Shown piece after piece: positions 34,462 to 64,000 of a stretch of 64,000 nt of DNA. Below the pieces are notes generated by a model. That model did no database searches. It was given only the letters and a program-made list of their open reading frames with translations, and was not told the origin of the DNA. The stretch covers positions 62,001 to 126,000 of the forward strand of contig NZ_JAELTI010000002.1 of assembly GCF_016428755.1 (NCBI RefSeq), in the 5' to 3' direction. Source of the DNA: Allobosea sp. ASV33 (GTDB lineage: Bacteria > Pseudomonadota > Alphaproteobacteria > Rhizobiales > Beijerinckiaceae). The position numbers and the translations under genes were made by a program. Within the stretch, counting starts at the first letter, position 1, and each line of letters starts with the position of its first letter.

Positions 34462-34806
34462 TAACACTGGGGCTCCGAGACTTACCGGACCCTATGCCGG
34501 CTAGGCCGTGCATTTCGGGTGAGCGTGATTGCTAAAATCCGAAGGACCTTCGAACGTGGAGTTCTGGCACACGTGCTTCACGATTAGTGCCATGTCTTTC
34601 GGCGGCTTCGACCCCATTCTGCCGTCACGAGGGCAGACAGTTGCGAGATTTCGAGCGCTCGAAGGCTTTCTCATCAAGGGGCAGAAAGGCTGATAAAGAA
34701 ATTGCAACTGATAAATCTGAATTCGCGGGTCTACGCAGGCACGAAGTGTTGTCGGCATGGCGCGCCGATGCGATACGTGGGCGAATGAAACGATTCAGGG
34801 GCGACC
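34462..34806. other. Intergenic region between methyltransferase and ABC-3C genes
   Basis: The 345 bases between the two divergent units must hold both promoters. Short frames on each strand have no coding character. The stretch is richer in A and T than its surroundings. I see no clear operator; CAGGGG just before 34807 is the ribosome site of the nuclease gene. Confidence 0.5.
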
Positions 34807-35811: not shown

Positions 35812-36293
35812 GCGTAAGCATTTCCGACCTGTATCATACGCCGCTTGAAGCGGGGATCCGTGCCGTCGTGGTGCTCGAGCATCTTCGGCCGATCACTGCC
35901 GATCTGAGCGAGGTCGTCCTTTACGACCACGTTGTCGTCCACGCATCCGACGTCGGCGGACCGATGTCGCTTCACGCTGCGGTCTCCGGCCGGAGGGGCG
36001 AGCTGCTCGTTCGACGCGGCATTGTGGAGGCAGGACTCGACCTCATGCGCAGATGCCACCTCCTGGAGAAGGTCGCCGACGATGAGGGCTTCACTTGGCG
36101 AGCTTCCGAGGAGGCCGCCTCGTATGTCGAACTGCTGGAGTCCTCCTATTCAGAAGATCTGAAGACCTGCGCGAGCTGGCTCGCAGAGCAGGTTCGGGAG
36201 CTGTCGAAGGCTGGCTTCAAGTCCATGGTTGTCGGTCACATCGGGGAATGGACCGAAAGTTTCGGGCATGGCACTGCCCAGGCGGGCGCCTGA
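35808..36293 (+). CDS. ABC-3C middle component
   Basis: A 161-residue protein started at the ATG overlapping the nuclease stop. It carries the middle-component pattern of ABC three-component systems: ISDLYHTPLEAGIRAVVVLE, then VVLYDHVVVHASDVGGPMSL and RRGELLVRRGIVEAGLDLM. In ABC-3C systems (defined by comparative genomics) the middle component is thought to bridge effector and ATPase. The start of the ATPase follows after one base, so the three proteins are made from one message in coupled fashion. Confidence 0.85.
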   Translation: MSVSISDLYHTPLEAGIRAVVVLEHLRPITADLSEVVLYDHVVVHASDVGGPMSLHAAVSGRRGELLVRRGIVEAGLDLMRRCHLLEKVADDEGFTWRASEEAASYVELLESSYSEDLKTCASWLAEQVRELSKAGFKSMVVGHIGEWTESFGHGTAQAGA

Positions 36294-36294
36294 T

Positions 36295-38172
36295 ATGCCG
36301 CCATCTCGGTTCATCCTGCGGCGCCTGGCTTTTACCGGACCGGATAGACAGAGCGTCGGCCTCGACTTCGCTTCGGGATTGACTGTCGTCTGGGGTGGCT
36401 CGCAGGCAGGCAAATCCTACGCGGTCAAAGCGCTCGACTACATGTTCGGTGGCGGATCTGCCCTGCCGGGCCTGACCGAAGCCGTCGGATATGACAGGTG
36501 CTGGCTAGAAATGGATCTGCCGAAGTCCGGTCGGATCACTCTCGCACGTTCGATGTCAAAGGGTGGATACGATCTTTTCGAGGGCGAGTTCGACCAAGCG
36601 CTCGCGCGGAAAAGCGACCGCACTCTGGCCGAAAATCACACCACTAAGAAGGAGAGCCTCTCGACATTCCTCCTTGGAGAACTCGGCGTCGGCGACACGG
36701 AAATCGCCCGGACCCAGAGCGGAGACAAGTCGACCTTCACGATCCGGCATTTCGCCAGTTACCTGTTCACCGAAGAGACCCCGATGATCGCGGAAGAAAG
36801 CCCGATTGTCGTGGACCGCCAAAGTAGTGACACGTTCAATAAGAACGTCCTCAAGTTCATCCTCACAGGCGTCGACGACAAGTCGATGGTGAAAGTCCCC
36901 GATACGAAGCAGCAGAGACAGACGAACGCGGGCCGCATTGAAATCGTTGAGGAGATGCTGAACGCGGCTGTGGCAGAACTTGCAGCCATGTACCCGGGCG
37001 TCGAGGATTTGACGACCTTGAAACTCGACCAGCAGGCCGAGCGGCTGGATGCGACGTTGGAAGCCTTCCGATCGAACTTGGCGAAGGGTCATTCGGCTCT
37101 CGACTCGCTTTCCATGGAACGCCGACTGCTGGTTTCCGAGCGTGAGGAACTGACGGAACGGGCGGACGAGGCAGCATTAACCATCGAGCGCTTCGAATTG
37201 CTGGCCACCAGCTTTGCAAGCGATATCCGCAGATTGATAATGTTGGAAGAAGGGGCCGCGGCCCTTATGGCAGGTGCGAAACGTACATGCGTTCTGTGCG
37301 GCGCCGATCCAGAACATCAGCATGTCGAGCACGGTTTCGAGGCCGTGGAAACTTCCCAGAAGGCCGTTTCCGCTGAGTTGAGGAAGGTCCGTGCCGAAAG
37401 CGCCGGATTGGCGAAGGCGATAGCGTCGCTCAAGGCCGAAGCGATCGGGATGCGGAGGCGGATTGATTCCCTTTTCGGTGACATCGAAGTCAAGGATGGG
37501 CTGATCGAGGCTGCGCGAAATGCCGCGGTCAAAACACGCGAACAGTACGAAGCGATCGATGTGGCGCGCAAGAAGCTCCATGATGCGATGTCCGTCGAGC
37601 GGAGGATTAGCGGACTAGGGGCTCGTCACGCGGAGCTGTCGAGGTTCAAGCCGAAGGGCGTCGCCAGGGGAAGCGTCATCACCGGAGTCGGCACCGTGGT
37701 CGGCGATGAACTCGCGGCTGCGGTGCAGAGCATCTTCAAAGAATGGAAGTACCCGGGAGATCCTCGGATCACATTTCACGAGCAGACCCATGATATCCTA
37801 CTGAACGGGAAGCAGCGGAACGCCAACGGCAAGGGCGTAAGGGCATTGCTGAACGCCGCATTCAAGATCGGCGTCATGGATGTCTGCCGGACTCGCAAAC
37901 TTCCACATCCGGGCATCGTCGTCCTCGACAGCCCGCTTCTCAGCTACCGAGATCCGCTCAAGTCCAAGCACAAGGAACTGAGCGCAGACGAAGCCACCGT
38001 GGCCGCGGCAGGGCTGAACGTGCACTTTTACAACTATCTTATCAAACGCTCCAATGACGCGCAGTTCATCGTCATCGAGAACCAGGATCCTCCGTTCCCG
38101 CTTCCAGAAAGTGTGCGCGAGCATGTCTTCGCAGGCGAACACGGCAACTCGGGCCGACGCGGTCTGTTTTGA
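36295..38172 (+). CDS. ABC-3C SMC/Rad50-like ATPase
   Basis: A 625-residue ATPase started at 36295, one base after the middle component. Walker A is GGSQAGKS (about 34-41). Long helical segments from about 210 to 460 form a short coiled coil with a zinc-hook-like CVLC (Cys333, Cys336) at the turn. The C-terminal lobe has IVVLDSPLLSYRDP, the Walker B/D-loop part. This is the architecture of Rad50-like sensors in ABC-3C conflict systems, where DNA or an invader signal would drive nuclease activation. The last gene of the unit; the exonuclease gene converges on it 38 bases away. Confidence 0.88.
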   Translation: MPPSRFILRRLAFTGPDRQSVGLDFASGLTVVWGGSQAGKSYAVKALDYMFGGGSALPGLTEAVGYDRCWLEMDLPKSGRITLARSMSKGGYDLFEGEFDQALARKSDRTLAENHTTKKESLSTFLLGELGVGDTEIARTQSGDKSTFTIRHFASYLFTEETPMIAEESPIVVDRQSSDTFNKNVLKFILTGVDDKSMVKVPDTKQQRQTNAGRIEIVEEMLNAAVAELAAMYPGVEDLTTLKLDQQAERLDATLEAFRSNLAKGHSALDSLSMERRLLVSEREELTERADEAALTIERFELLATSFASDIRRLIMLEEGAAALMAGAKRTCVLCGADPEHQHVEHGFEAVETSQKAVSAELRKVRAESAGLAKAIASLKAEAIGMRRRIDSLFGDIEVKDGLIEAARNAAVKTREQYEAIDVARKKLHDAMSVERRISGLGARHAELSRFKPKGVARGSVITGVGTVVGDELAAAVQSIFKEWKYPGDPRITFHEQTHDILLNGKQRNANGKGVRALLNAAFKIGVMDVCRTRKLPHPGIVVLDSPLLSYRDPLKSKHKELSADEATVAAAGLNVHFYNYLIKRSNDAQFIVIENQDPPFPLPESVREHVFAGEHGNSGRRGLF

Positions 38173-38210: not shown

Positions 38211-39197
38211 TCAGGCACGAAATCGATCAAGCGCCGTTAGCCGCTGGGTCAGCGGTTCGGCATCCTCCCAGCAATAGATGTCGGACCTCAGATAACGTAG
38301 CTCCTCGTCATAGAGCTCCTCGTCGATTTCGATCCACCAAGCTCTGGGCCGTCCGTCGCTCCCATCCGACCAGCGATAGCCGCGGGTCTTGAGCTGGTCC
38401 TTCATGTCGAAGGGCGCGTTCTCGGCGAAGATGCGGACCCTGCTCTGCGCGCTCGATCGCAATAGCTCTGCGAACGGGCGCGTACCATTAGGCCCCGCTG
38501 GCCGTGCCAGCACCTCCAGGAGAGCGTGGCAGTCATCGGTTGCACGATGCCCTTCATGGAATAGTCCGGACTGACCGACGAGGTACCCGAGCTTGTTGCC
38601 TTCGAAGCCCAGGTCGGCCCACCTGATCTCGGTGACCGAGCATGCCCAGGCTTTCGACGCAAAGGTTGGCGAAAGCCCTTCGCAGAATGGGCGATCGAAT
38701 GCGGCATTGTGCGCAATGACGAGGTCGGCCGGTTCAACGAGAGCGTCGAGCGCGGCGATATCGATGTAGCGGCCAGACACCATCTCGTCCGTGATGCCGG
38801 TCAGCCTGGTAATCTCTGCTGGGATTGGCGCCGATGGCTGACGCAAGCCGCTGTAGACCCCGATGACGTCCCCAATCATGCCCACATCGTTGTAGGTGAA
38901 GCTCACTGCGCCGATTTCGATGATCTCGTCCCGGGAATGAAACAGCCCGGTGGTTTCTGTATCCACCAGCACCGCGACGTTCGGGAACGCGCTTTGCTCC
39001 CGGGCAACGATCGGACGGGGTACCAGCTTCCGCAGAACCTTGAAGCGTCCAGTCTCCTCTAGTCTTTGGGCAAGCTCCTCATCATCGCTGGATGGCAACA
39101 GGACTTCGGACCGGCGTTTCCTGGGAGATGGTCGGGGCGTCTGCCGATAACCCGGCGCATCGTCGAAAAGGTCGATCTGGGTGGATGCCATCTTCAT
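38211..39197 (-). CDS. DnaQ-like 3'-5' exonuclease
   Basis: A 328-residue DEDDh exonuclease. Exo I is VLVDTETTGL (Asp79, Glu81), Exo II is VIAHNAAFDRPF, and Exo III is HRATDDCHALLEVL (His and Asp). The N-terminus reads MKMASTQIDLFDDAP; QIDLF matches the beta-clamp binding consensus QL(S/D)LF. A C-terminal segment after about 230 (RVRIFAENAPFDMKDQLKTR, then RWSDGSDGRPRAWW) is a small extra domain. It resembles the epsilon-like exonucleases used in repair or phage defence rather than the replicative proofreader. Confidence 0.9.
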   Translation of the reverse strand: MKMASTQIDLFDDAPGYRQTPRPSPRKRRSEVLLPSSDDEELAQRLEETGRFKVLRKLVPRPIVAREQSAFPNVAVLVDTETTGLFHSRDEIIEIGAVSFTYNDVGMIGDVIGVYSGLRQPSAPIPAEITRLTGITDEMVSGRYIDIAALDALVEPADLVIAHNAAFDRPFCEGLSPTFASKAWACSVTEIRWADLGFEGNKLGYLVGQSGLFHEGHRATDDCHALLEVLARPAGPNGTRPFAELLRSSAQSRVRIFAENAPFDMKDQLKTRGYRWSDGSDGRPRAWWIEIDEELYDEELRYLRSDIYCWEDAEPLTQRLTALDRFRA

Positions 39198-39285
39198 CCG
39201 GCGACCTTATCCGTTTTTTCGTCACCGACTGCCAGGAGTCGTCATCAGCAGAAATTGAGGAAGCCGCGACACGACGGGCTGATGT

Positions 39286-53751: not shown

Positions 53752-54918
53752 GTGGCCCGCCGGTCGTCAACGAATACTGACCCGGTCGACGAGAAAGATG
53801 GCACTGCCCGGCCGCCCTCTTCCGATCCGGGCCAAATCGGCGATGAACAGGACAATTGGACATCGCCATTGACCTTCGACGCCGTGCCCGGCCCAAATGG
53901 GCCGGGCGGGCCGCTTCCCGCCGGACATTCGCCCAATGCGGTTCTCGGGTGCCCAGTGGCCACGACGTTCGGATTTCTCGTAAACGACGGTTTCCCGTTG
54001 CTTTCCTTGGCATCGTCGGTCGAGTCACTTCGGGCCGCGAACGCGGTGACGGGGAAGGAGCTGTACCGATGGTGCTTCCTGACGACGAGCGGCCGCGACA
54101 CGCTGTCGTCATGCCGGATGCTCGTGCGACCGGACAACGACAGCTTCGAGGCGGTATCGGTCGACATCATGGTCGTATGCGCTGGCGATAGTGCAATCCA
54201 TTTTCATGACGATCGGATATTCGCATTCCTCCGACGGCTCTCTCGGAAAGGCGTGCGGATTGGGGGTCTGTCGGGTGGCACCTTCGTTCTAGCTAGGGCC
54301 GGTCTCCTGGAAGGAAAGCGCTGCACCGCTCACTGGGATCATGTTCCGGCCCTGCGCGAGCAGTTTCCCAAACTCAAGTTGAAGCAGACGCTCTTCGAAT
54401 TCGACGGACAGTGCTTCACATGCGCCGGCGGCAACGCGGCATTGGACATGATGAATGCCTTGATCGCCACCGACCATGGTCCAGCGGTGGCCCGCAATGC
54501 CAGCGAATGGTTGATCCAAACTCAAATCCGGCAGGCCGAAGACCATCAGAGAATGACCGTCCGTCAGAGGTTCGGACTTTTCCATCCGTTGCTCATAAAG
54601 GCACTGGACCGCATCGAGGCCACGGTCGACGAGCCCATTGAACGCGAAGCACTGGCGGATGCCGTGGGATTGTCACTGAGGCAGTTGGAGCGGCTTTTTG
54701 CGACGCATCTCCACATGACCATCCACCAGTACATTGTGAAGCTGAGGATCGAAAGAGCGAAGATACTCATTCGACAGACGTCCCTGCCGCTCGGCGAGAT
54801 CGCGATTGCGTCGGGCTTCTCGAACTTCAGCCACTTCTCAAAGGTCTATAAGCGCCAAATCGGGGTGTCTCCACGAGATACTCGCGCCAACGAGAAAGCC
54901 AGTCCGGTTCGCGCTTGA
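53752..54918 (+). CDS. GlxA-type AraC regulator (DJ-1-like sensor + AraC HTH)
   Basis: A 388-residue regulator from a GTG at 53752. The N-terminal two thirds (from about 65, GCPVATTFGFLVNDGFPLLS) is a DJ-1/GATase1-like domain; the nucleophile position reads GGLSGGTFVLARAG, with no Cys, so it is a sensor, not an enzyme. The C-terminal AraC domain has DAVGLSLRQLERLFATHLHM and IAIASGFSNFSHFSKVYKR. Related regulators (GbdR, SouR, CdhR) control glycine-betaine, sarcosine and carnitine use. It presumably activates the upstream operon in response to its substrate. Confidence 0.92.
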   Translation: MARRSSTNTDPVDEKDGTARPPSSDPGQIGDEQDNWTSPLTFDAVPGPNGPGGPLPAGHSPNAVLGCPVATTFGFLVNDGFPLLSLASSVESLRAANAVTGKELYRWCFLTTSGRDTLSSCRMLVRPDNDSFEAVSVDIMVVCAGDSAIHFHDDRIFAFLRRLSRKGVRIGGLSGGTFVLARAGLLEGKRCTAHWDHVPALREQFPKLKLKQTLFEFDGQCFTCAGGNAALDMMNALIATDHGPAVARNASEWLIQTQIRQAEDHQRMTVRQRFGLFHPLLIKALDRIEATVDEPIEREALADAVGLSLRQLERLFATHLHMTIHQYIVKLRIERAKILIRQTSLPLGEIAIASGFSNFSHFSKVYKRQIGVSPRDTRANEKASPVRA

Positions 54919-54931
54919 CCACGCGATAGCG

Positions 54932-55180
54932 TCACGACTGCTTCGCGCTAAGGTCCAAAACGACTCCTTTGGCGCCGGCCACATCAACGAAGCGGACGCC
55001 TTCAGCATCGAGTACGCCGAGTACTGCATCGCGAACCCGGGCCTGCGGGCGGCGGACGTCACCTTCGAATTCCGCAAGCGTCTGCCGCCGGATACTCGCT
55101 CGTTCGGCAAGCTCCGCCTGCCCCCATCCGAGAAGGCCCCGCGCACCAACTACCAATCGGCCGGTAACCATGTCGCGCAT
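54932..55180 (-). CDS. XRE-family small repressor
   Basis: An 82-residue helix-turn-helix protein started at 55180 (MRDMVTGRLVVGARGLLGWG). The HTH is LLGWGQAELAERASIRRQTL, then AEFEGDVRRPQARVRDAVLG and a C-terminal LDAEGVRFVDVAGAKGVVL, the pattern of small XRE regulators common in alphaproteobacterial mobile elements. It is divergent from the three-gene unit that starts at 55357, with a palindrome between, so it is probably its repressor. Confidence 0.8.
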   Translation of the reverse strand: MRDMVTGRLVVGARGLLGWGQAELAERASIRRQTLAEFEGDVRRPQARVRDAVLGVLDAEGVRFVDVAGAKGVVLDLSAKQS

Positions 55181-55320
55181 TATGATTCGCACATTTTGTT
55201 CGAAATCGGCATTGAGCTCTCGTGGCCTCGAGGGCGCTTGATCACCCGGCATCACGCCCCTCCTCCGCCGCAACCATTCGAACGGTCCGCGAAGGGATTC
55301 GCGGGTTCTTGAAACCAACG

Positions 55321-55338
55321 TCCGAAAACCATTTCGGA
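55321..55338. promoter_or_regulatory. 18-base palindromic operator
   Basis: TCCGAAA-ACCA-TTTCGGA is a perfect inverted repeat ending 18 bases before the ATG at 55357 and lying between divergent genes. This size and position suit the dimeric XRE regulator encoded at 54932-55180. Confidence 0.6.
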
Positions 55339-55356
55339 TGAAGGCGGAGCACTGTC

Positions 55357-55941
55357 ATGAACGTTACGATATCGAGAATAACCGATCTCCCGACGCCTCT
55401 TGATAACTTTCGACGGCAACATTGCCTGGATGACATCCTTGATGCTCGGCTAGTCGCTGATCGAAGAGTAGTGGATTTCCATGGAAGCAGCAGACAGGAT
55501 TCAATCCTTCAGTCCTCCGATGCTCCGCCGGGTTCGGTCATCAGGATCGCCCGGTTACCGGATCGGATTCTCCAGATCGTTGCAATCTCCGATGGCTTCA
55601 ACCACCAACGTCTCGGCCGAAGATTGCGACGACACTCGCCGGGCGCAAACATTCTCGTCGTCAGCGAACTCTGGCTCCGTCGGCGCCCTCATCTCGATGT
55701 CTCCGAACTCATCGTCGCGAGCGCTCGATACCCCGTTTCGCCGCTCGCCCACCTTCATCTCGCAGAGCACCTGACAGATCATGGCGGCAGCGCTCCCCTG
55801 ATCGATTGCGCAGCCCTCATGACGCAAGCCGAAGATCCGGTTCGGGCGGTACTGGCAGTTGCTGCATCGAAGGCCATATCGATCGACATCTCCCGCCCGC
55901 TGGGACCCTATACCAAGGTCACAATCTCGTCCGCGCGGTGA
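55357..55941 (+). CDS. Hypothetical protein, first gene of the FtsH-like unit
   Basis: A 194-residue protein behind a GGAG site. No named family recognised. The first half is polar (MNVTISRITDLPTPLDNFRR); the second half has a helical-looking VSPLAHLHLAEHLTDHGGSA and PLIDCAALMTQAEDPVRAVL, ending in SIDISRPLGPYTKVTISSA. The last part resembles the winged-helix ends of some transposon proteins (including the C-terminal domain of TnsA), but I see no nuclease motif in it. It is the first of three same-direction genes ending in the AAA+ protease. Confidence 0.65.
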   Translation: MNVTISRITDLPTPLDNFRRQHCLDDILDARLVADRRVVDFHGSSRQDSILQSSDAPPGSVIRIARLPDRILQIVAISDGFNHQRLGRRLRRHSPGANILVVSELWLRRRPHLDVSELIVASARYPVSPLAHLHLAEHLTDHGGSAPLIDCAALMTQAEDPVRAVLAVAASKAISIDISRPLGPYTKVTISSAR

Positions 55942-56048
55942 AGCGCAGTCCACGAGGCGGCTCTGACCCGCCAAGCGATTTCATATTTGCACATCTGAAA
56001 ATGATCGCAACGGTTTGGCACTCCCTGACCGCGCGATGGAGCACGCCG

Positions 56049-56393
56049 ATGATCTACCCCCACCCTGACCTCCGTCCCGTTCCCGAACTGGCACCCGAAA
56101 TCGAAAAGCTGAGGCACCTCGTACGCGATCTCGACCGGATACGGATGGGCAAACACCCGGGGGTCCGGGAGCTTGGCGGGGCACCCACGATCACGGACTG
56201 GTCCCCCGCGGAGCGGCGTGAGGTCGCCCTGGTCGGCCGGGTCCACGGCCATCCCACGATCGAAGATGGCCGCCAGGCAGGCACTTCCATCCTCTTCTTC
56301 CTGGCCCCGGAACTCGGCTACGCGCGGACTCTCAGCCGCTTCTACAAGCTCGGCGATCGCTTCCAGCTCTCGGACCGATGGGATTTCCGATGA
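56049..56393 (+). CDS. Hypothetical protein preceding the AAA+ protease (possibly DUF6634-like)
   Basis: A 114-residue protein started at 56049 behind GGAG. It begins MIYPHPDLRPVPELAPEIEK, then LRHLVRDLDRIRMGKHPGVR, a charged helix, and ends with GTSILFFLAPELGYARTLSR and FYKLGDRFQLSDRWDFR. It resembles small proteins I associate with DUF6634, which tend to sit beside AAA ATPase genes; that label is uncertain. The stop overlaps the start of the ATPase by ATGA, so the two proteins are made in a fixed ratio and probably interact. Confidence 0.7.
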   Translation: MIYPHPDLRPVPELAPEIEKLRHLVRDLDRIRMGKHPGVRELGGAPTITDWSPAERREVALVGRVHGHPTIEDGRQAGTSILFFLAPELGYARTLSRFYKLGDRFQLSDRWDFR

Positions 56394-58366
56394 TCTCGCG
56401 CAGATCGCTGGACAGCCGGTATCGAGACGCCAGTGCGGTTCTGGCTCGATCGCTGATTACCCGTGCCCTGCGCCGCGCAGACCTTCGGCATTTCCTGCTA
56501 GGTCAGCCGGGCATCGTCGGGGTCATTGTTCCCGAGGTCGACGCCGAGAGTTACGTCAGCACCGCCACCTTGATGCTTAAGCCGCGAGGCACCGCTTACG
56601 ACGGCGATGTCGAAGTCATTCATTTTGACGGCGTGCCTCCGAAACGTGGTTTCCGGACGCAAGCCGAGACATTCAAGGATGTATTGCCGAAATCTGACAG
56701 GATCATCGGTGTAGCGTCCAGAGAGAGCGATATCCCGGACGCGTTCCGGCGAATTGCCGACGCGATCGTGGTGGTCGACCCCGTCGATATCACGGCCTTG
56801 CAAGGTGTCTGCGCAACCCTGCTCGGTCGCATTCCTTCCGATGCCGAGCTCGCACCCGCGATCGGCGCTCCACTGCACATTCTCGGTGCAGCGATCAAGC
56901 GCGGGCGTAACGCCGGTTGGGCCCTCCGGAGATTGCGCGGGTTCGTGGCCGCCGCGTCCACTCCCAACCCGACACCGAACATATCACGAGCCGGACCGAT
57001 GCTGTCAGAACTCCACGGCTATGGAGCGGCACGAGAATGGGGACATGCGCTCGCGGCCGATCTTGCCGACTATCGCGCGGGAGTGATTTCTTGGGCCGAA
57101 GTGGACCGAGGCATAGTCCTCGTCGGTGCACCGGGTGTCGGCAAGACAATCTTCGGCTTTGCGTTGGGACGCACCTGCAATGTTCCGGTTTTCGCGCACT
57201 CGCTCGCCCAATGGCAGGCGACCGGATACCTCAACGACGTCATCAAGGCGATGCGGGCAGCGTTCGCCGAAGCGCTTCGGAATGCTCCAAGCCTTCTGAT
57301 CGTCGATGAACTCGACTCATTCGGAGATCGCGAACGGCTTTCGGGGCACAGCGAAAACTACTGTCGCGAAGTGATCAACGCGTTTCTCGAGTGTCTCGAC
57401 GGAGGGCACTCACGTGAAGGTGTCGTGGTGATCGGGACGACGAACCTAATCGAGAAGGTCGATCGCGCGATCCTTCGGCCGGGTCGGCTCGAAAGGCAGG
57501 TCAACATCCCCCTGCCGGATGCTCTCGCTCGCGAGGGCATTCTTCGCCATCACCTCCGCGGGGACCTTCCCGACGCGGACTTGCTCGATGTCTCGGAACG
57601 ACTGGAGGGAACATCGGGCGCGGGTATTGAGCAACTCGTTCGCGACGCCCGACGGCGAGCTCGCTCCGAGCTACGCCCCCTAATCACGGATGACCTCGTC
57701 GCCAGCCTGCCCGCTCGAGTTCGCCTGTCCGAGGCGGCGTTTCGAAGAGCATGCATTCACGAGGCCGGCCACGCCGTGGCGGGACATGTCCTTCGCCAGG
57801 AATCTTCGTCCACGCCGGTGGAGGCCAAGGTTTTCCGGGAGGTCCGCGACGGTGCCTGCGGGCGAACGAACTTCGATAATGAATTCGGCGCTGAACGCAC
57901 GAAGGCCTTCCACCTTGCCCGGATCACCGTCCTTCTGGCGGGATTGGCGGCGGAGCAAATCGTTCTGGGCGAGCACGGAGACGGAGGTGGCGGAGAGGAG
58001 CCGTCCGATCTCCACTCAGCCACCATGCTGGCAGCCAGCCTGGACCTCTCCTATGGCCTCGGCCAAGGCCTCGCCTACCTCTCCTCGCGCAAGGAAGAGG
58101 CGCTCGCGGCCTGGCTGCGGGGCGATCCTCAGCTCCGGCGGCGCGTCGAGGCCGACCTCGATGTGTGCTTCCGGCGCGCCCAGGATGTCCTGACCAAACA
58201 CCGCCGCGGAGTCGAGGAGATTGCAACCGCCCTCGCCGCTCTCGGAAGCATTGGGCGCGAGGACATTGCTCGCATCGTGGATCAGCGATCCACGGAGCTG
58301 TGTCCCGAGAATTGTCGGATTGACGTCAACTCATGCGCAACCATGAGCCGGAGCGCTCGGCAATGA
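56390..58366 (+). CDS. Soluble FtsH-like AAA+ zinc metalloprotease
   Basis: A 658-residue protein. Residues 1-230 are an N-terminal region without membrane segments. The AAA+ module has Walker A VGAPGVGKT (about 245-253), Walker B LLIVDELDSFGDR (about 302-314) and arginine-finger/second-region-of-homology ILRPGRLERQVNIPLPD. The M41-like peptidase follows: zinc site HEAGH (about 457-461), then VLLAGLAAEQIVLGEHGDG and EEPSDLHSATMLA, where the Asp (about 540) fits the third ligand of FtsH. The two N-terminal transmembrane helices of true FtsH are absent. It is predicted to unfold and degrade a target protein in the cytoplasm. Coupled to the small gene upstream. Confidence 0.85.
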   Translation: MISRRSLDSRYRDASAVLARSLITRALRRADLRHFLLGQPGIVGVIVPEVDAESYVSTATLMLKPRGTAYDGDVEVIHFDGVPPKRGFRTQAETFKDVLPKSDRIIGVASRESDIPDAFRRIADAIVVVDPVDITALQGVCATLLGRIPSDAELAPAIGAPLHILGAAIKRGRNAGWALRRLRGFVAAASTPNPTPNISRAGPMLSELHGYGAAREWGHALAADLADYRAGVISWAEVDRGIVLVGAPGVGKTIFGFALGRTCNVPVFAHSLAQWQATGYLNDVIKAMRAAFAEALRNAPSLLIVDELDSFGDRERLSGHSENYCREVINAFLECLDGGHSREGVVVIGTTNLIEKVDRAILRPGRLERQVNIPLPDALAREGILRHHLRGDLPDADLLDVSERLEGTSGAGIEQLVRDARRRARSELRPLITDDLVASLPARVRLSEAAFRRACIHEAGHAVAGHVLRQESSSTPVEAKVFREVRDGACGRTNFDNEFGAERTKAFHLARITVLLAGLAAEQIVLGEHGDGGGGEEPSDLHSATMLAASLDLSYGLGQGLAYLSSRKEEALAAWLRGDPQLRRRVEADLDVCFRRAQDVLTKHRRGVEEIATALAALGSIGREDIARIVDQRSTELCPENCRIDVNSCATMSRSARQ

Positions 58367-58718
58367 AACCTTCCGTTTCGAAGGCTCATGATATACGAGC
58401 GCCCTCCCTCGCACCGTTTCCGTCGCCTGAAGGACTCAATCCCTTCTGCGGAGTTCGCGAGGTAGACGTCATCCGTATCGCTCCACAACGGAACGAACGC
58501 AGCCAGGGGAGGCATGAAGATGATCGCATTCACCTGCCCCAACTCCGGACACTCCCGCGCCTCCGCGCACCTCCACCGCATATCGGCCTGACACCACCGG
58601 ACCACGGTCCGTCTCGTCAGCCCCATCGCAGGCGCCTGCCTGCGGCGGTCAAGCCTCGACGCGCGCCGACGCGTCGAAACGATGGAGTGTGTCATGAGCG
58701 CAAGACAGCGAATTCTGA
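58367..58718. other. Gap between the protease gene and the transposon genes
   Basis: I see no convincing gene here. It holds a 12-bp perfect palindrome GCAGGCGCCTGC (58628-58639) and an inverted repeat (58656-58677), then an ATG with a GGAG site at 58694 whose frame ends after 27 codons at 58776. In Tn7-like elements the end of the transposon lies just outside tnsA, so an element end with TnsB sites may be in this stretch; I could not pick out the repeats by eye. Confidence 0.4.
58656..58677. repeat. Inverted repeat upstream of the tnsA region
   Basis: TCGACGCG (58656-58663) and CGCGTCGA (58670-58677) are exact complements around a 6-base centre. It could be the terminator of the FtsH-like unit or an operator or end-site of the transposon. 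Confidence 0.6.
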
Positions 58719-58958
58719 AACAGATTACCGAAGGGAACTGGTGCGTGGCCGGCTTGGAAAGGAGCTTGTCCATATAGCGCTTCGACCTCCGCTCTCCGAG
58801 CGGCCGCGCCGATCTCGGGAGTCCTCGGTGGCGACTGCTATCGGTCGACTTCTCCCGATCGTAGGCCCGCACCGAAGAAGGACGGAGCGCCCGTCGGCGT
58901 CATCACCGATCCGTTCCGTCGTCGAACATATGTCTACGAAAGCCGCAACGAGCGCGCG

Positions 58959-59498
58959 GTGCTCATTCTTCTCATTGCCCATCCGGGAGTCGCAGAGATC
59001 CGCGAGCAGGTCACTACGCGCTACCAGCGGCATGGCGTCGACCGTAGCTACACCTTCGACATCGTCGTGCGTATGCGCGACGGCTGGGTCGAGGCAATCG
59101 CCGTGAAGGGCAAGGAGGAGGAACTGGCGGCGGACGATACTTGCGGGACCCTCAGGGCGATTCACGCCCAGCACGGCGCTCGCTTCGCCAACGCGTATCG
59201 CGCGATTACCTACGAAAAGCTCGATCCCATCGCGCTGAAGAATGCCGAACTTATCCTTCGCTGCGGCGGAGACCGCGATATCGAGGGCCAGACGCAAGTT
59301 CGCGAAGCACTCGCTGACCTCCCGGCGACGGTGACGCCGCGCGAGATCGGCGACGCGACGAAGCTCGGGCGTCGCGGGATTCGCGCCGCGTTCGCCCTGG
59401 TGCAGGCGGGCATTCTTATGCCCCCCCCTGGACAGGAATTGGATCCGGATCTGCCGCTCGAGAACCGCGCATCAGCAACCGGTAACTACGCTCCTTAG
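58959..59498 (+). CDS. tnsA: TnsA-like endonuclease, start missing or frameshifted
   Basis: The first canonical in-frame start is the GTG at 58959 (180 codons with stop), but similarity to TnsA begins upstream: codons from about 58872 read PKKDGAPVGVITDPFRRRTY and then VYESRNERAVLILLIAHPGV. The frame is open from 58719 with no ATG, GTG or TTG before 58959. The expected catalytic Glu (SRNER, codon 58950) is thus outside the canonical gene. Inside it are VAEIREQ, the Asp of YTFDIVVRMRD, and an AVK where TnsA usually has QxK. After about residue 90 comes the winged-helix-like C-terminal domain. TnsA cuts the 5' ends of the element. Either a start was lost by a frameshift (the ATG at 58694 is in another frame) or a non-standard start is used. 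Confidence 0.65.
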   Translation: MLILLIAHPGVAEIREQVTTRYQRHGVDRSYTFDIVVRMRDGWVEAIAVKGKEEELAADDTCGTLRAIHAQHGARFANAYRAITYEKLDPIALKNAELILRCGGDRDIEGQTQVREALADLPATVTPREIGDATKLGRRGIRAAFALVQAGILMPPPGQELDPDLPLENRASATGNYAP

Positions 59499-59559
59499 CG
59501 CAATCTCCAGTTCTGGAGCGGGATGGTGCCGACCTCCCGCTCCGAAGACAGAGGAAACG

Positions 59560-61770
59560 ATGCAGGCGACGCGTTACAGGCTGGGTAGTCACGATCGGAT
59601 CAAGATCGCCGGCGCAGCTTATCGCCCCGTCCAGAAAATCGGGCGCGAGCACCTGCTTCAGCTCGTCACCGAAGGAGTGCTTCAGCAGCACTTCCGGCTC
59701 GTCAGCGACGAGGAGATCGGTGATCTTCTCCGTAATCGCCGAGTGCGGATTGAAGAGAACCACTACTCGCTCGCCCGTCAATTCCTGCTCGCCAAGGGCG
59801 ACGATTCCAATCTCCACGGGCTGGAAGAGGACGAAATCCGCTCGATCGCGTGGAAGGCGGAATGGTGCCGACGCTTCGAGGAAGCTCAGGCCGGGGGGCG
59901 ATTCAGTCGTTCGATGCGCGACTTTGAATCCTTCATCGAGCAAGCCAAGGATTCAATCCATCGCTGGTACATCGAAGAGTTCCGCGCCGCACGCCCTCTC
60001 GGACGGGACCTCAGCGGCGAGGAACGCAAGACGTTCGACTATCCCAGCGCATCGACGTTGCGATACTGGCTCAACCGCTACGCTGCGGCAGATCGTCGGC
60101 GCGCCGCATTTCGCCCGCGCTATGAAAACTGTGGCAACAAGGATCAGCTCGACCCGCGGGTCGCAATAATCGTCGAGAAGAACGTCAACAGGTATGCGAG
60201 TCGCGCGAGGCCAAGAATTGCCGACATCTACGAGGCTGTCGAGGCGGATATCGATGAACTCAATCACAGCCTTCCGGAGGGACCCAAGGTTTACGTCAGC
60301 GAGCGCGCGATACGGCGCCGAATACGACGCTTGCCACCCCTCTTCGTAGACCTCGGCCATCTCGGCCCCGATCGAACGAAGAAGAAGTATTCTCCCGTTG
60401 GAAGCGGTCTCGGCGAGTTGGCTCGGATGGAACGTGTCGAGATGGACGATTGGGAGATGGATCTCCAGGCCGTCCTGCGTCACAAGCACGCGCGCTATTT
60501 CGTAACCGAACAGGCCCGGTCGGCGGCGAACAAGCTTCGCCGTTTGAAGATCACGGTGCGCTGCACCATCACGGCCGCAATCGATGTTGGCACGAAATGT
60601 ATCGTTGGACTGGCGGTCAGTCCATTCGCGCCTTCGACCGCAGGCTCGAAGTCCGCGCTACGTTCCATCATCGTGGACAAGAGCGAGCTGGCGAAGGCTG
60701 CCGGTGCCGCGAGCGACTGGCCAATGACCGCCCGCCCCCGTGCGATCGTCACCGACGGTGGCCCGGCCTTCCGCGGCGAATTCTCGGAAAGCGTCTCAAA
60801 GCTCAACATCGAGCATTCTCTACCGGGGGGAAACCCAAGAAATCGCGGAACGATCGAGTCCTTCTTCCGCACCTTCAAGAGATTCTGCCGCCAGTTCACC
60901 GGCCAAGCCTTTTCCAACGTCGTCGAGAAAGGCGATTACCCGTCAGAACAGATGGCCAGCCTCGTCGTCGAAGACCTTGAGCGGCTTCTGACACGCTTCA
61001 TCGTCGACAGCTACCATCACCGGCCTCATCGCGGGCTGGGCGGGGACCGTCCCTATAACGCATGGGCCCACTCCACGGCTGATTTGGACGTCCCTCCCGA
61101 TCACATTCAGCGACTTATCGCGTTTGGCGTCGAGCTGCACGACAGGGCTATTTCGGCAACCGGAATTCGATATTTCCACGTCGATTATAAGCACTCCAGG
61201 ATGGCCGCCCTATTCGGCTTGGCCGCCAAGGAGCGCCTGACGGCGATCGTCGATCCTCACGATATGGGCACCATGCTGGTCTTGGTGAAGGACGAATTTC
61301 GGGATCATTTCACCGACGACCGCCACGGCAACTACTTGATCTTCACCGCCGAGGGCTACGAGGGCACCAGCGTCGCCGAACACTTTCGCTCCAACCGGGT
61401 ACTGCGCGAGTTTGAACGCGAGCAGGCGGCGTTGGGAGCGCCGTTCCGGCTCGGTGCGCTCCGCGCGATCCGACAGGAGGCGGAGGCGGCCCGCATCAGG
61501 GCGGGTATCCCCTCGGACGAGGTCGATGCCAAGGCGTTCCGAAATTTCGTTCGCTATCTGGAACGGAAAGGGGCCATCGCCGTCGAGCCTCGCCGCCAGC
61601 CGTCCGGGGAGCCGATGAACATGGATGATGGCCTCACCAGTGTCGGAACCCTCATCGCAGGAAGCGAGCCGCCACCGAAGGTGAAGACCACCGGAACACA
61701 GCAATCTCCGGGTAGCCCATCGATCCTCCCGCGATCCATCAATCTGTACGACGACGAGTCCGACGAATGA
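59560..61770 (+). CDS. tnsB: Tn7-like transposase TnsB (DDE integrase)
   Basis: A 736-residue DDE transposase of the TnsB/TniA/Mu class. N-terminal helix-turn-helix DNA-binding domains occupy about residues 1-270 (LRYWLNRYAAADRRR). The RNase H core has Asp296 (RVEMDDWEMDLQ), Asp399 (AIVTDGGPAFRG) and Glu433 (RNRGTIESFFRTFKR). A beta-barrel follows (HVDYKHSRMAALFGL) and the C-terminal tail, rich in charged residues, would bind TnsC. It joins the 3' ends to target DNA. 61 bases follow tnsA; the stop overlaps the tnsC start by ATGA. Confidence 0.95.
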   Translation: MQATRYRLGSHDRIKIAGAAYRPVQKIGREHLLQLVTEGVLQQHFRLVSDEEIGDLLRNRRVRIEENHYSLARQFLLAKGDDSNLHGLEEDEIRSIAWKAEWCRRFEEAQAGGRFSRSMRDFESFIEQAKDSIHRWYIEEFRAARPLGRDLSGEERKTFDYPSASTLRYWLNRYAAADRRRAAFRPRYENCGNKDQLDPRVAIIVEKNVNRYASRARPRIADIYEAVEADIDELNHSLPEGPKVYVSERAIRRRIRRLPPLFVDLGHLGPDRTKKKYSPVGSGLGELARMERVEMDDWEMDLQAVLRHKHARYFVTEQARSAANKLRRLKITVRCTITAAIDVGTKCIVGLAVSPFAPSTAGSKSALRSIIVDKSELAKAAGAASDWPMTARPRAIVTDGGPAFRGEFSESVSKLNIEHSLPGGNPRNRGTIESFFRTFKRFCRQFTGQAFSNVVEKGDYPSEQMASLVVEDLERLLTRFIVDSYHHRPHRGLGGDRPYNAWAHSTADLDVPPDHIQRLIAFGVELHDRAISATGIRYFHVDYKHSRMAALFGLAAKERLTAIVDPHDMGTMLVLVKDEFRDHFTDDRHGNYLIFTAEGYEGTSVAEHFRSNRVLREFEREQAALGAPFRLGALRAIRQEAEAARIRAGIPSDEVDAKAFRNFVRYLERKGAIAVEPRRQPSGEPMNMDDGLTSVGTLIAGSEPPPKVKTTGTQQSPGSPSILPRSINLYDDESDE

Positions 61771-62828
61771 GCCAGAACGACGACGACAGCTCCAACCACC
61801 TTGAAGCCGATCCCTTCGCTGACGACGACGCCTTCTTAGCGATGATGAAGGCGCGCATGCCCCAGCGCGGCCAACGCATCGTCGAACGCCTGGAGCGCGT
61901 CAAATCTGTCTACGTGACCTGTGGTCGCGACAAGGCCCTCGCCGACAGCTTCGATGGCTTCATGCGCAACTTCTTTGCACGGCGAGGTTCAGGCCGTGAT
62001 GAGGCGGAGGTATTCTTTGTCACCGGCGAAAGCGGGGCAGGCAAGAGCGCCGCGATTGAGCGTCTTCTATCGCGCGAGCCGTTATTGAAGCCGATCGAGG
62101 GGCCCTTCGGAACGACTTCGCCTTACGTCTCGATCAAACTTCGTGGCTTCACGCATCCGCGCATCGCAGGTCGAAATATCATTTCCGCCGCCGGATACCC
62201 GATCCGCCAGGATACGCAACGGGCAGAAATCTGGGATGTCATGGCGGCCCGGCTCAAGGCCAGGCGGGTTTTTCTGGTCCACATCGACGAAACCCAGCAT
62301 CTGATCAAGCAATCCGCCTCGCAGAAGGAACGCGAGGAACTGGCGAACGCGATCAAGGGCGTCTCCATCGATCGCGATTGGCCGGTGGCTTTCTTGCTTT
62401 CCGGCCTGCCTGGGGTGGCCCAGTTACCGCTCAATGACGAGCAGTTCGAGCGCCGCGGCGGAGCGTTCATCGCTTTCACCGATGTGAAGCTTCCCGAGGA
62501 GCGCAAGCTCGTCACGAAAATTCTCGTCAAGATGTGCGAGGCAGCCGGATTGGGCGTCTCGCGCTTGCTGGAAACCGATCTGCCGGAGCGCCTGGCCCAT
62601 GCCGCTCGGTACCGCTACGCCCGAATATGCCAGATCACTCTCGAGGCCATCCATGCCGCTCTTGCTGCCGACGACGACCCTCACGAGCTGACCCTCACCG
62701 ACTTCGCGAGGGCCTATGCGACCCGCTCCCATGCGCTGGGGCGCGACGACATGAATCCCTTCCTCGTAGATCGGTGGACGGCCCTGAAACCAGGCTCGTT
62801 CCTGATCGACGACACCGACGAGAACTAG
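61767..62828 (+). CDS. tnsC: Transposition AAA+ ATPase TnsC (TniB-like)
   Basis: A 353-residue AAA+ protein. Walker A is VTGESGAGKSAAIE (GESGAGKS about 87-94), Walker B is FLVHIDETQHLI (Asp175, Glu176), and FLLSGLPGVAQL is the sensor-1 region. The N-terminus EADPFADDDAFLAMMKARMP fits the part that meets TnsA/TniQ. In Tn7-like elements it forms a filament on target DNA, recruited by TniQ, and activates TnsB. Three bases separate it from tniQ. Confidence 0.92.
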   Translation: MSQNDDDSSNHLEADPFADDDAFLAMMKARMPQRGQRIVERLERVKSVYVTCGRDKALADSFDGFMRNFFARRGSGRDEAEVFFVTGESGAGKSAAIERLLSREPLLKPIEGPFGTTSPYVSIKLRGFTHPRIAGRNIISAAGYPIRQDTQRAEIWDVMAARLKARRVFLVHIDETQHLIKQSASQKEREELANAIKGVSIDRDWPVAFLLSGLPGVAQLPLNDEQFERRGGAFIAFTDVKLPEERKLVTKILVKMCEAAGLGVSRLLETDLPERLAHAARYRYARICQITLEAIHAALAADDDPHELTLTDFARAYATRSHALGRDDMNPFLVDRWTALKPGSFLIDDTDEN

Positions 62829-62831
62829 GCG

Positions 62832-64000
62832 ATGCCGAGCCACTCGCCGATCCAGCCCTTAGGTTGGGCGCACCCACTCCAGAAGCGAGAACCGGCGAGC
62901 GGATTTGCCTCTCGTCTGGCGGCCCTGAACGGCGTGGACCTTCCCACCTTGATGGTCGACATGGCCATTCCGCAGGCGGATGTCTTCTGCGGCACGGAAG
63001 CTGCGGCGCGCGACATCGCGGCGCTGGGAGGGCTTGGCGCCGCCGACACGGACGAACTGGTCCGCTACACCCCCTTGCGATTGTCCGCAAACGGCTCGAC
63101 CAGGGTGACGACGGAGCATCTCGATAGGGGAACGGTGAGCCGGGCGTTCATTCGCTACTGCCCGCATTGCATCCGGGAAGACATCGAAACGTTCAAGGGA
63201 CCCGAGGCCGCGCGCCCTTGGCAGCGGACTGAGTGGCTGATCGAGAACATCCGAAGCTGTCGGACCCACAACGTCTGGCTCGTCCGCGCCGCCGCGAGCC
63301 GCGGAAGGAGCGCAGCGCCCGACTTCGCCGCGACGATCAGCCTGGCGGCGTTGCCAAACCTGGACACGCTGCTGCGAGACGCCGTTGCCTCCCCGCCTTC
63401 GGCGTTTGAGGACTGGATCGTCGCGCGATTGGATGGAACTCGCGAGCCATCGAACGGGCTCGACGACATGCCATTGCGGGTAGGCATCGATTTCTGCGAA
63501 GCGCTAGGCGTGTCTTCGCTCCACCCTCCCCGCGCAGGTGTCGGAAAGCTTTCGGTGATCGAATGGGCGAGAGCTGCCGAGGAAGGGTTCGGCTTCGCCT
63601 CAGGAGGAGAGAACGGCATCGAAAAACTGCTCTCGCGGCTGGTCGAGCAGCAAAACATGACCCGCGGCCAGATGGGCTTGTTCGACACCTATGGCTATGT
63701 GGTCAGGCGCCTGCAAAGGACCAAAGGCGATCCCGACTACCAGAAGCCACGCTCGGTACTGCGCCGCCATGCCCTTGAAGCTATTCCGCTCGCCCCGGGG
63801 ACCGACGTGCTTGGCGAGATCTTGGATCGCCGTCGCCTCCATACCATCCATACGGCCTCCCTGGAGGCAGGTGTGAACGTCCGAGCAATCCGCACCTTGC
63901 TCGTCAGAAAGGGCCTATATACGGCTGACGAGGCAGCCGATCTCACGAATCACCGCATCAAACTGAGCGTGGAGGAATTCGAGCGCGAAATCCGAAGGCT
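62832..64000 (+). CDS. tniQ: TniQ/TnsD family target-selection protein (partial)
   Basis: Starts at the ATG 62832 and runs off the window, giving 389 codons. The TniQ zinc-finger domain is present: IRYCPHCIREDIETFKGPEA, then PWQRTEWLIENIRSCRTHNV with the Cys/His knuckle. Downstream (RGQMGLFDTYGYVVRRLQRT) it continues into helix-turn-helix-like segments. It recruits TnsC to the target; the length beyond 389 residues suggests a TnsD-like form that reads a specific attachment site, but the end is not visible. Confidence 0.92.
   Translation, partial: MPSHSPIQPLGWAHPLQKREPASGFASRLAALNGVDLPTLMVDMAIPQADVFCGTEAAARDIAALGGLGAADTDELVRYTPLRLSANGSTRVTTEHLDRGTVSRAFIRYCPHCIREDIETFKGPEAARPWQRTEWLIENIRSCRTHNVWLVRAAASRGRSAAPDFAATISLAALPNLDTLLRDAVASPPSAFEDWIVARLDGTREPSNGLDDMPLRVGIDFCEALGVSSLHPPRAGVGKLSVIEWARAAEEGFGFASGGENGIEKLLSRLVEQQNMTRGQMGLFDTYGYVVRRLQRTKGDPDYQKPRSVLRRHALEAIPLAPGTDVLGEILDRRRLHTIHTASLEAGVNVRAIRTLLVRKGLYTADEAADLTNHRIKLSVEEFEREIRR

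Follow-up and report, generated by a model that had tools for sequence, protein, structure and literature searches.

The present work concerns a compact gene unit of Allobosea sp. ASV33 (genus Bosea), located in a stretch of 64,000 nucleotides (the window) within a 150-kb contig of the 5.66-Mb genome. The unit comprises a minus-strand XRE-type open reading frame (ORF), an 18-bp palindrome and, divergent from this ORF, three plus-strand genes encoding 194, 114 and 658 residues, the last of which encodes a soluble protease of the FtsH-like AAA+ type, on a branch apart from housekeeping FtsH. Its features are listed below, with handles such as L035 for the loci compared (L053 is the window's own locus stretch, and L052 lies on contig 204 of the same genome):

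54932 to 55318, minus strand: XRE-type regulator gene, 128 residues from a TTG; weak HTH_19 and HTH_3 matches, below the cut-offs; true start likely near 55180 or 55171.
55287 to 55304, no strand: second palindrome, CCGCGAA-N4-TTCGCGG, in the divergent region; no conservation seen.
55321 to 55338, no strand: 18-bp palindrome, TCCGAAA-N4-TTTCGGA, which may be an operator; L035 has the same arms at the corresponding position (8666).
55357 to 55941, plus strand: 194-residue protein, TnsA-related by profile match to a TnsA set, phmmer and alignment; catalytic lysine replaced.
56049 to 56393, plus strand: 114-residue DUF6634 (PF20339) protein; Pfam 28.1 bits; AlphaFold2 model with a helix and a six-stranded beta part.
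56390 to 58366, plus strand: 658-residue soluble AAA+ metalloprotease (FtsH-like, M41), by Pfam, alignment, tree and fold; N-domain of ~200 residues.
57758 to 57772, plus strand: HEAGH motif of the protease, residues 457-461; third-ligand position D540 at 58007-58009.

This layout agrees with the original prediction, made from the stretch alone, which had described a small XRE-type gene, an 18-base palindrome between divergent genes, and three same-direction genes of which the last two are translationally coupled. The coupling corresponds to an ATGA overlap at 56390-56393, retained in L034 and L035 and not in L060. It had also ascribed to the last gene AAA+ motifs, HEAGH and the FtsH-type third ligand without membrane helices, and on this point Pfam, alignment and hydropathy agree.

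Indeed, the 658-residue protein matched AAA (PF00004) with 86.7 bits and Peptidase_M41 (PF01434) with 47.5 bits (cut-off 29.9), both above the Pfam cut-offs. Residues G251 and K252 (Walker A), D306 and E307 (Walker B), the arginines R363 and R366, as well as H457, E458, G460, H461 and D540, were invariant in 27 of 27 rows of a protease alignment (A1, window row included), and the catalytic residues were also invariant in the 19 rows of another (A3); we take D540 to be the position of the third zinc ligand of FtsH. The protein is predicted to form a hexamer and to carry out ATP-driven proteolysis. Bacterial FtsH is normally held in the membrane. By hydropathy alone, no membrane-like stretch appeared in the window protein (best 19-residue value 1.61), and the highest value among 45 accessory proteases was 2.05, while 15 of 17 housekeeping FtsH proteins reached at least 2.1 within their first 250 residues and two fell short. 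The window protein scored 147.7 bits with the NCBIfam FtsH equivalog TIGR01241, under its curated cut-off of 600, and the three M41 places of the genome scored 235.3 bits (housekeeping), 60 (contig 204) and 49.9 (window). In a tree of 62 proteins, 45 of them accessory and 17 housekeeping (the clone C FtsH2 of Pseudomonas aeruginosa not among them), the two groups parted at one branch with 100/100 support. Moreover, in a phylum sample of 398 genomes, 16 (the window's included) had a protease match of at least 407 bits, all in the window's class, while the other matches listed comprised one partial match at 332 bits and the rest at 321 or less. These phylum counts are lower bounds, since three candidates were scored per genome and the 400-bit line misses split genes (L257). 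A housekeeping FtsH or a recent paralogue of it, which would have refuted the original prediction, is ruled out by this tree branch and by the phylum-wide score gap.

Compared with FtsH and the m-AAA and i-AAA proteases (M41), the present protein likewise places an M41 zinc protease after its AAA+ domain, shares their motifs and finds its best fold match there, but it has a ~200-residue N-domain and no membrane-like stretch where those enzymes have a membrane part, and it occupies a separate branch. Its AlphaFold2 model (19 sequences; mean predicted local distance difference test score, pLDDT, 81.4; predicted template modelling score, pTM, 0.45) gave FtsH as the top Foldseek match (3kds, E 5.4e-28). 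Residues 14-189 of the N-domain were predicted as alternating helices and strands, then helices. In 9 of the 50 rows shown, the N-domain and the AAA+ domain were aligned together onto D1 and D2 of p97, Cdc48, NVL or Rix7 (340-410 residues, root-mean-square deviation 12.7-14.1), a comparison made on the whole-protein model. The two domains thus align to both rings of p97-type proteins, and this supports without proving that the N-domain may be a degenerate AAA+ domain without an ATP site. Unfoldase and M41 protease can also be separate overlapping genes, as in L170 (3505-6299) and L172 (4804-7493), and in L257 (5559-8637) DUF6634 is encoded between the two.

The membrane topology bears on one possible explanation of the unit, namely that it is stress or protein quality-control cargo, i.e., a general protease aiding the stressed host, comparable to the additional FtsH that Pseudomonas aeruginosa clone C carries. 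Passages of two papers present this FtsH2 as horizontally acquired, located on a genomic island and inner-membrane associated (PMC6629908, PMC10850787), so that the likeness lies in an extra, island-borne M41 AAA+ protease, and passages of the first report that the genomic-island FtsH xenolog adds to fitness (PMC6629908). That xenolog is membrane-spanning, whereas the present family is soluble by hydropathy, with its own N-domain, dedicated neighbours and the 100/100 branch, and we regard the quality-control explanation as quite unlikely. We know of no DUF6634 or TnsA-like partner of FtsH2.

The 114-residue protein, to which the original prediction had given no family, was assigned to DUF6634 narrowly, above a Pfam cut-off of 27, and its place scored 26.3 bits, just under the cut-off, in the whole-genome search; the Pfam model matched 15 of 15 members of the DUF6634 set (A2, E up to 10). 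Its AlphaFold2 model (6 sequences) reached pLDDT 83.6 and pTM 0.73, and the best structural match was the SANTA domain of 9r6h_A (Foldseek E 0.19; Z 5.8 where the noise guide is 8; root-mean-square deviation 3.4 over 67 residues). Pfam SANTA was absent among the 15 members, and among solved-structure sequences there was no convincing relative (best E 0.021, a designed coiled coil); a bacterial SANTA or RFTS-like domain is, from the model, only a lead.

The association of DUF6634 with the protease is much clearer. Searches of 150 relatives gave 47 protease places (E up to 1e-40), spread over 30 genomes. For DUF6634 (E up to 0.001) there were 32, in 25 genomes, and 24 of these 32 places lay within 3 kb of the protease, where ~0.02 would be expected (here and below, expected numbers are for places scattered uniformly over a genome set at 5.2 Mb). 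Conversely, 24 of the 47 protease places had DUF6634 within 4 kb. The neighbourhood is therefore conserved across genomes, in answer to the check proposed with the original prediction, and its description of the 114-residue protein as a partner gene gains from this conserved adjacency. DUF6634 remains rare (12 of the 398 phylum genomes). Of 20 DUF6634-centred stretches, 8 contained the protease, 7 others an AAA+ ATPase (388-589 residues, no HExxH) and 5 neither or fragments only; note that 8 of the 20 had been picked for having no protease found nearby, of which 1 turned out to have the protease, 5 had an AAA+ ATPase and 2 neither. L241, brought in as a DUF6634 locus, showed no DUF6634 ORF and was dropped. 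Since it also adjoins ATPases without a protease, DUF6634 accompanies AAA+ ATPases generally, and this link, both with and without the protease, makes the 114-residue protein, from its sequence relatives, a likely partner of AAA+ ATPases, with a putative adaptor role. Neither the protease nor DUF6634 requires the other, because each occurs apart.

Several variants were observed around this family. In L242, L244, L246, L247 and L254, DUF6634 adjoins a ~520-590-residue AAA+ ATPase family without protease, a sister system in which metallophosphoesterase-like genes were recognised by profile in L254 and, for L244 and L246, by eye. In L056 (4532-5542) and L243 (7803-8753), a long extension precedes DUF6634 at the N-terminus. 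The suspicion, raised by eye in L056, that DUF6634 is fused there to a MinD-like domain was rejected, as a profile of the ~230-residue genes (L037-L039, L041) misses L056 and L243; the same profile reaches 82 bits with L258 and 27 bits with part of L042. The 'MinD-like' label was itself given by eye, with no Pfam match above cut-off. The window's genome also has a second accessory copy in L052 (7830-11647), with DUF6634, a TnsA-related gene, the protease and two MbcA/Xre-type antitoxin relatives.

Gene order was compared over 34 protease loci, i.e., 20 genome stretches, 6 of 42 plasmid records and 8 of 80 loci from a contig scan with a generic pattern; most of these 80 were housekeeping FtsH, those used being L060-L064 and L066-L068, and L065 is a fragment. 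L049 and L057 are one locus, leaving 33 distinct, and opposite-strand shadow ORFs that clustered among the neighbours were ignored. The frequent neighbours were a metallophosphoesterase gene (10 of the 34 loci) and the ~230-residue MinD-like gene (5 of the 34).

The 194-residue protein matched no Pfam family at E up to 0.1. A profile-profile comparison of its family (window, L034, L035, L048 and L064) with a TnsA set gave 96.8% (E 2.9e-10), against at most 0.4% for ten unrelated sets, and a phmmer search with the window protein matched the TnsA of L045 (E 1.1e-6). Two other TnsA-related families were found upstream of the protease (L054/L055/L060 and L047/L049/L052), and the three scored 96.8%, 97.7% and 95.6% against TnsA, with ten unrelated neighbourhood sets at most 1.0%; the E-values of this comparison refer to pairs that we chose, and the ten unrelated sets serve as its control. 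The window-type family aligns to TnsA over its C-terminal two thirds, and in the alignment of the window-type and L054-type families the lysine position of the PD-(D/E)xK motif is replaced in both. TnsA is the end-nuclease of Tn7, and the roles of its catalytic residues are those generally assigned to it. The 194-residue protein is thus, judging by sequence, related to TnsA and without the catalytic lysine, and we know of no description of a TnsA-related protein lacking nuclease residues within an AAA+ protease operon.

Downstream of the protease, the genes of a Tn7-like element adjoin the unit, in keeping with the accessory position assigned to it originally:

58959 to 59498, plus strand: TnsA-like protein belonging to the Tn7-like element; 15.3 bits with the Pfam model of the TnsA N-terminus, under its cut-off of 26.5; matches TnsA of L035 and L060.
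59560 to 61770, plus strand: TnsB-like transposase; rve_3 and Mu-transpos_C, each below cut-off.
61767 to 62828, plus strand: TnsC-like ATPase (TniB family); TniB 34.9 bits, cut-off 22.4.
62832 to 64000, continuing past the window end, plus strand: TniQ target selector; PF06527 52.5 bits, cut-off 27; L053:8833-10734.

The tnsB, tnsC and tniQ genes lie together, with TniB and TniQ above cut-off and TnsB recognised by matches under cut-off only. After tniQ, three copies of the 18-bp direct repeat GGAACAAAACTTTGGGTC (L053 11179-11264) mark a probable transposon end, and the exact 17-bp core of this repeat occurs twice in the L034 element. No inverted copy was found near the module and no copy in the window at up to 3 mismatches, and direct repeats of this kind were absent from seven other elements, where the stretches may stop short of the end. 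On the other side, two Bosea genomes that have no such unit are homologous up to the araC 3' end (~54884-54899), ~33 bp before the XRE stop; there is no clean empty site, since the three genomes differ beyond this point. The module may lie inside the Tn7-like transposon. A piece of a DnaQ-like exonuclease ORF (by eye; window 38849-39236) is found, 77% identical, directly after araC in L153 (7053-7441), a Bosea genome without the unit, which suggests a shared island hot spot. Elsewhere in the window, a cytosine methylase-type ORF (32356-34467) and a large ATPase-type ORF (36229-38172), both by eye, may represent a second island or defence locus.

These genes raise the possibility of transposon control, in which the AAA+ protease would remodel or destroy the transpososome of the Tn7-like element. 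Either DUF6634 or the TnsA-like protein, dead as a nuclease, would mark DNA-bound TnsABC, and the ring would dismantle it after strand transfer or keep transposition rare. Consistent with this, a TnsA-related gene of one of the three families lies upstream of the protease in 11 of the 33 distinct loci (12 counting a weak one), the lysine is missing in both families aligned, 9 of the 38 TnsB places (E up to 1e-10) recovered from the 150 relatives are no more than 10 kb from the protease (~0.05 expected), and the one-strand order protease, tnsA, tnsB, tnsC is common to the window, L034, L035 and L060. An AAA+ unfoldase serving a transposition complex would recall ClpX, which acts on Mu transposase, is host-encoded and has no fused protease. 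Against it, TnsB-like genes were near the protease in just 9 of the 33 distinct loci (a 19-bit match in L049/L057 to an annotated ISNCY transposase being left out), and the other 24 stretches had no tnsB, including those of plasmids L054 and L055 with a TnsA-like gene, while 29 of the 38 TnsB places had no module within 10 kb. The protease and TnsB may simply share islands and, since the second element end was not found, the module may just be carried by the element or lie next to it. We consider transposon control unlikely. A broader form of the idea, which we also judge unlikely, is that alphaproteobacterial mobile elements encode a free AAA+ machine dismantling DNA-bound complexes: the nuclease-dead TnsA-like protein and DUF6634 would steer the soluble FtsH-like ring to Tn7-type or other transpososomes, either for the element's own disassembly or as an immunity protease, and the protease-less DUF6634-AAA+ pairs would do the same by unfolding.

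The mobility of the family extends beyond Tn7-like elements. Protease relatives (E up to 1e-40) occur on 42 plasmid records, e.g., pB32-2 of Bosea sp. F3-2 (205,401 bp), and in viral contigs 13 of 80 loci are family members (33-43% identity), several of them at a contig edge, which makes host DNA beside a prophage possible. A phage origin of the protease was rejected, the phage collection giving 27 records of which none covers 80% of the query, with at most 31% identity among the 20 listed. A Rhodovastum plasmid (L059, 1269-4969) has a protease gene near phage portal and terminase genes, and the AAA+ and M41 part of its protease is identical in the viral contig L200.

Regarding control of the unit, the XRE-type ORF scored 20.9 bits with HTH_19, and an inner ATG may be its true start, leaving a divergent promoter of ~180 bp. 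The palindrome (spacer ACCA) has a single place in the window within 2 mismatches; as 0.35 would be expected there, it is unremarkable by count alone. The best operator evidence comes from L035 (protease 59% identical), because the 7-bp arms recur there unchanged around a different spacer, at the corresponding position between the XRE and 194-residue genes. Among 14 other divergent regions the window palindrome was not seen, and those regions have other palindromes or none. XRE-type relatives were recovered in 15 of the 34 protease loci; in 11 of these 15 the gene lies upstream and on the other strand. The XRE-type gene with a candidate operator that had been proposed is thus retained, and repression by the XRE protein is a plausible function. 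Two further explanations turn on these genes. The protease could act mainly as a derepression switch by degrading an XRE repressor, either its own or one belonging to another element, in the way that ImmR is cut by ImmA; the divergent XRE gene and the conserved palindrome arms speak for such a switch, and the recovery of an XRE-type relative in just 15 loci speaks against it, so that we find it decidedly improbable. Alternatively, the unit could be a plasmid or island stability device of toxin-antitoxin type, as MbcA/Xre-type antitoxin relatives lie next to the protease or DUF6634 in 4 of the 33 distinct loci (Pfam-checked in one) and L057 has a RES-domain gene; no toxin gene was recognised in the window unit and most loci are without these genes, which leaves this device very improbable.

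The reading that we favour, tentatively and as somewhat less than probable, is that the unit represents an accessory defence or conflict module, borne by mobile elements and acting by regulated proteolysis, and it is favoured because of the conserved gene set, the mobility and the defence-type neighbours. Annotated defence-type genes occur within 8 kb in 8 of 12 plasmid loci hand-picked from the 42 records and in none of the other 4; they include Kiwa-like, TIR, ABC-three component with RES, CBASS with HORMA, SIR2, DUF1837, and methylase or restriction genes. In control stretches of the same plasmids, 1 of 6 had defence genes (Shedu, and an S8 protease with ATPase), or 2 of 6 if HEPN/nucleotidyltransferase is counted. 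In addition, 9 of the 10 metallophosphoesterase neighbours matched PADLOC PDC-S10 over their first half, with 35-55 bits, and one GIY-YIG neighbour matched PDC-S14 (122 bits), PDC models being presumably phage-defence candidates; the other partner proteins scanned against PADLOC gave no match, except one AAA+ ATPase via its AAA domain.

According to this defence or conflict reading, the XRE protein would sit on the palindrome in the resting state and keep expression of the unit low. Once invading or competing DNA (phage, plasmid or transposon) was sensed, DUF6634 and a second partner (TnsA-like here, of another family elsewhere) would deliver their target, some specific protein or a nucleoprotein complex, to the AAA+ ring. 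The ring would unfold it for degradation in the M41 chamber. Both element and host could benefit, through defence or inter-element competition.

A number of observations weigh against this reading. With a Fisher p of 0.13 (0.32 counting HEPN/nucleotidyltransferase), the defence tally falls short of significance, and it leans on annotation names and hand-picked records; two of the eight loci, L055 and L262, resemble one island. PDC-S10, having no cut-off, may be just a metallophosphoesterase family, and the PADLOC matches of the protease itself are confined to the shared AAA domain. At Pfam level, 23 of the 47 protease places lack DUF6634 within 4 kb, DUF6634 also occurs beside protease-less AAA+ ATPases, and Foldseek gave no significant structure match for its model; finally, the XRE matches are under their cut-offs (30.2 for HTH_19). 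The phage-defence role named as one possibility in the original prediction is suggested by the defence genes near most of the plasmid loci, whose excess over the controls does not reach significance.

Among described systems, the IetAS anti-phage system consists of an AAA+ ATPase and an S8 protease, and is thus similar in coupling an AAA+ ATPase to a protease, the AAA domain here matching IetA models (PADLOC 55.6 bits; NCBIfam 57.9, below the cut-off of 510) by its common AAA part only. It differs by its separate serine protease, whereas the M41 metalloprotease lies in the same chain here, and no adjacent S8 serine protease gene was found by Pfam among the eight proteins from 53752 to 62828. 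Regarding Tn7-like elements, which share the adjoining TnsA-, TnsB-, TnsC- and TniQ-like genes, passages of PMC8649781 indicate that their cargo often includes defence genes. The main text of this paper has 'protease' 0 times (supplements outside the search), and its passages include no AAA+ protease operon with an additional TnsA-like gene that is dead as a nuclease. A full-text search for Tn7-like elements with FtsH returned, in the parts of the texts available, a figure legend on HflK as the sole mention of FtsH, and one on DUF6634 found nothing. No account of a soluble FtsH-like or M41 AAA+ protease in phage defence or on genomic islands was found, with most subscription papers outside the search, and within this scope the earlier statement that no described system of such architecture was known stands.

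Altogether, what is new here is the TnsA relation of the 194-residue protein, the possible AAA+ nature of the N-domain, the protease-less DUF6634-ATPase pairs and the split unfoldase and protease genes. Our results mark out a soluble FtsH-like AAA+ protease branch travelling on plasmids, islands and Tn7-like elements, whose members should be easier to study than membrane FtsH, and they give DUF6634 a role, as an AAA+ ATPase partner, that can be put to the test. If the defence reading is true, a fused AAA+ metalloprotease would join the known defence machines, and if a role in transposition is true, mobile elements would encode their own complex-dismantling protease.

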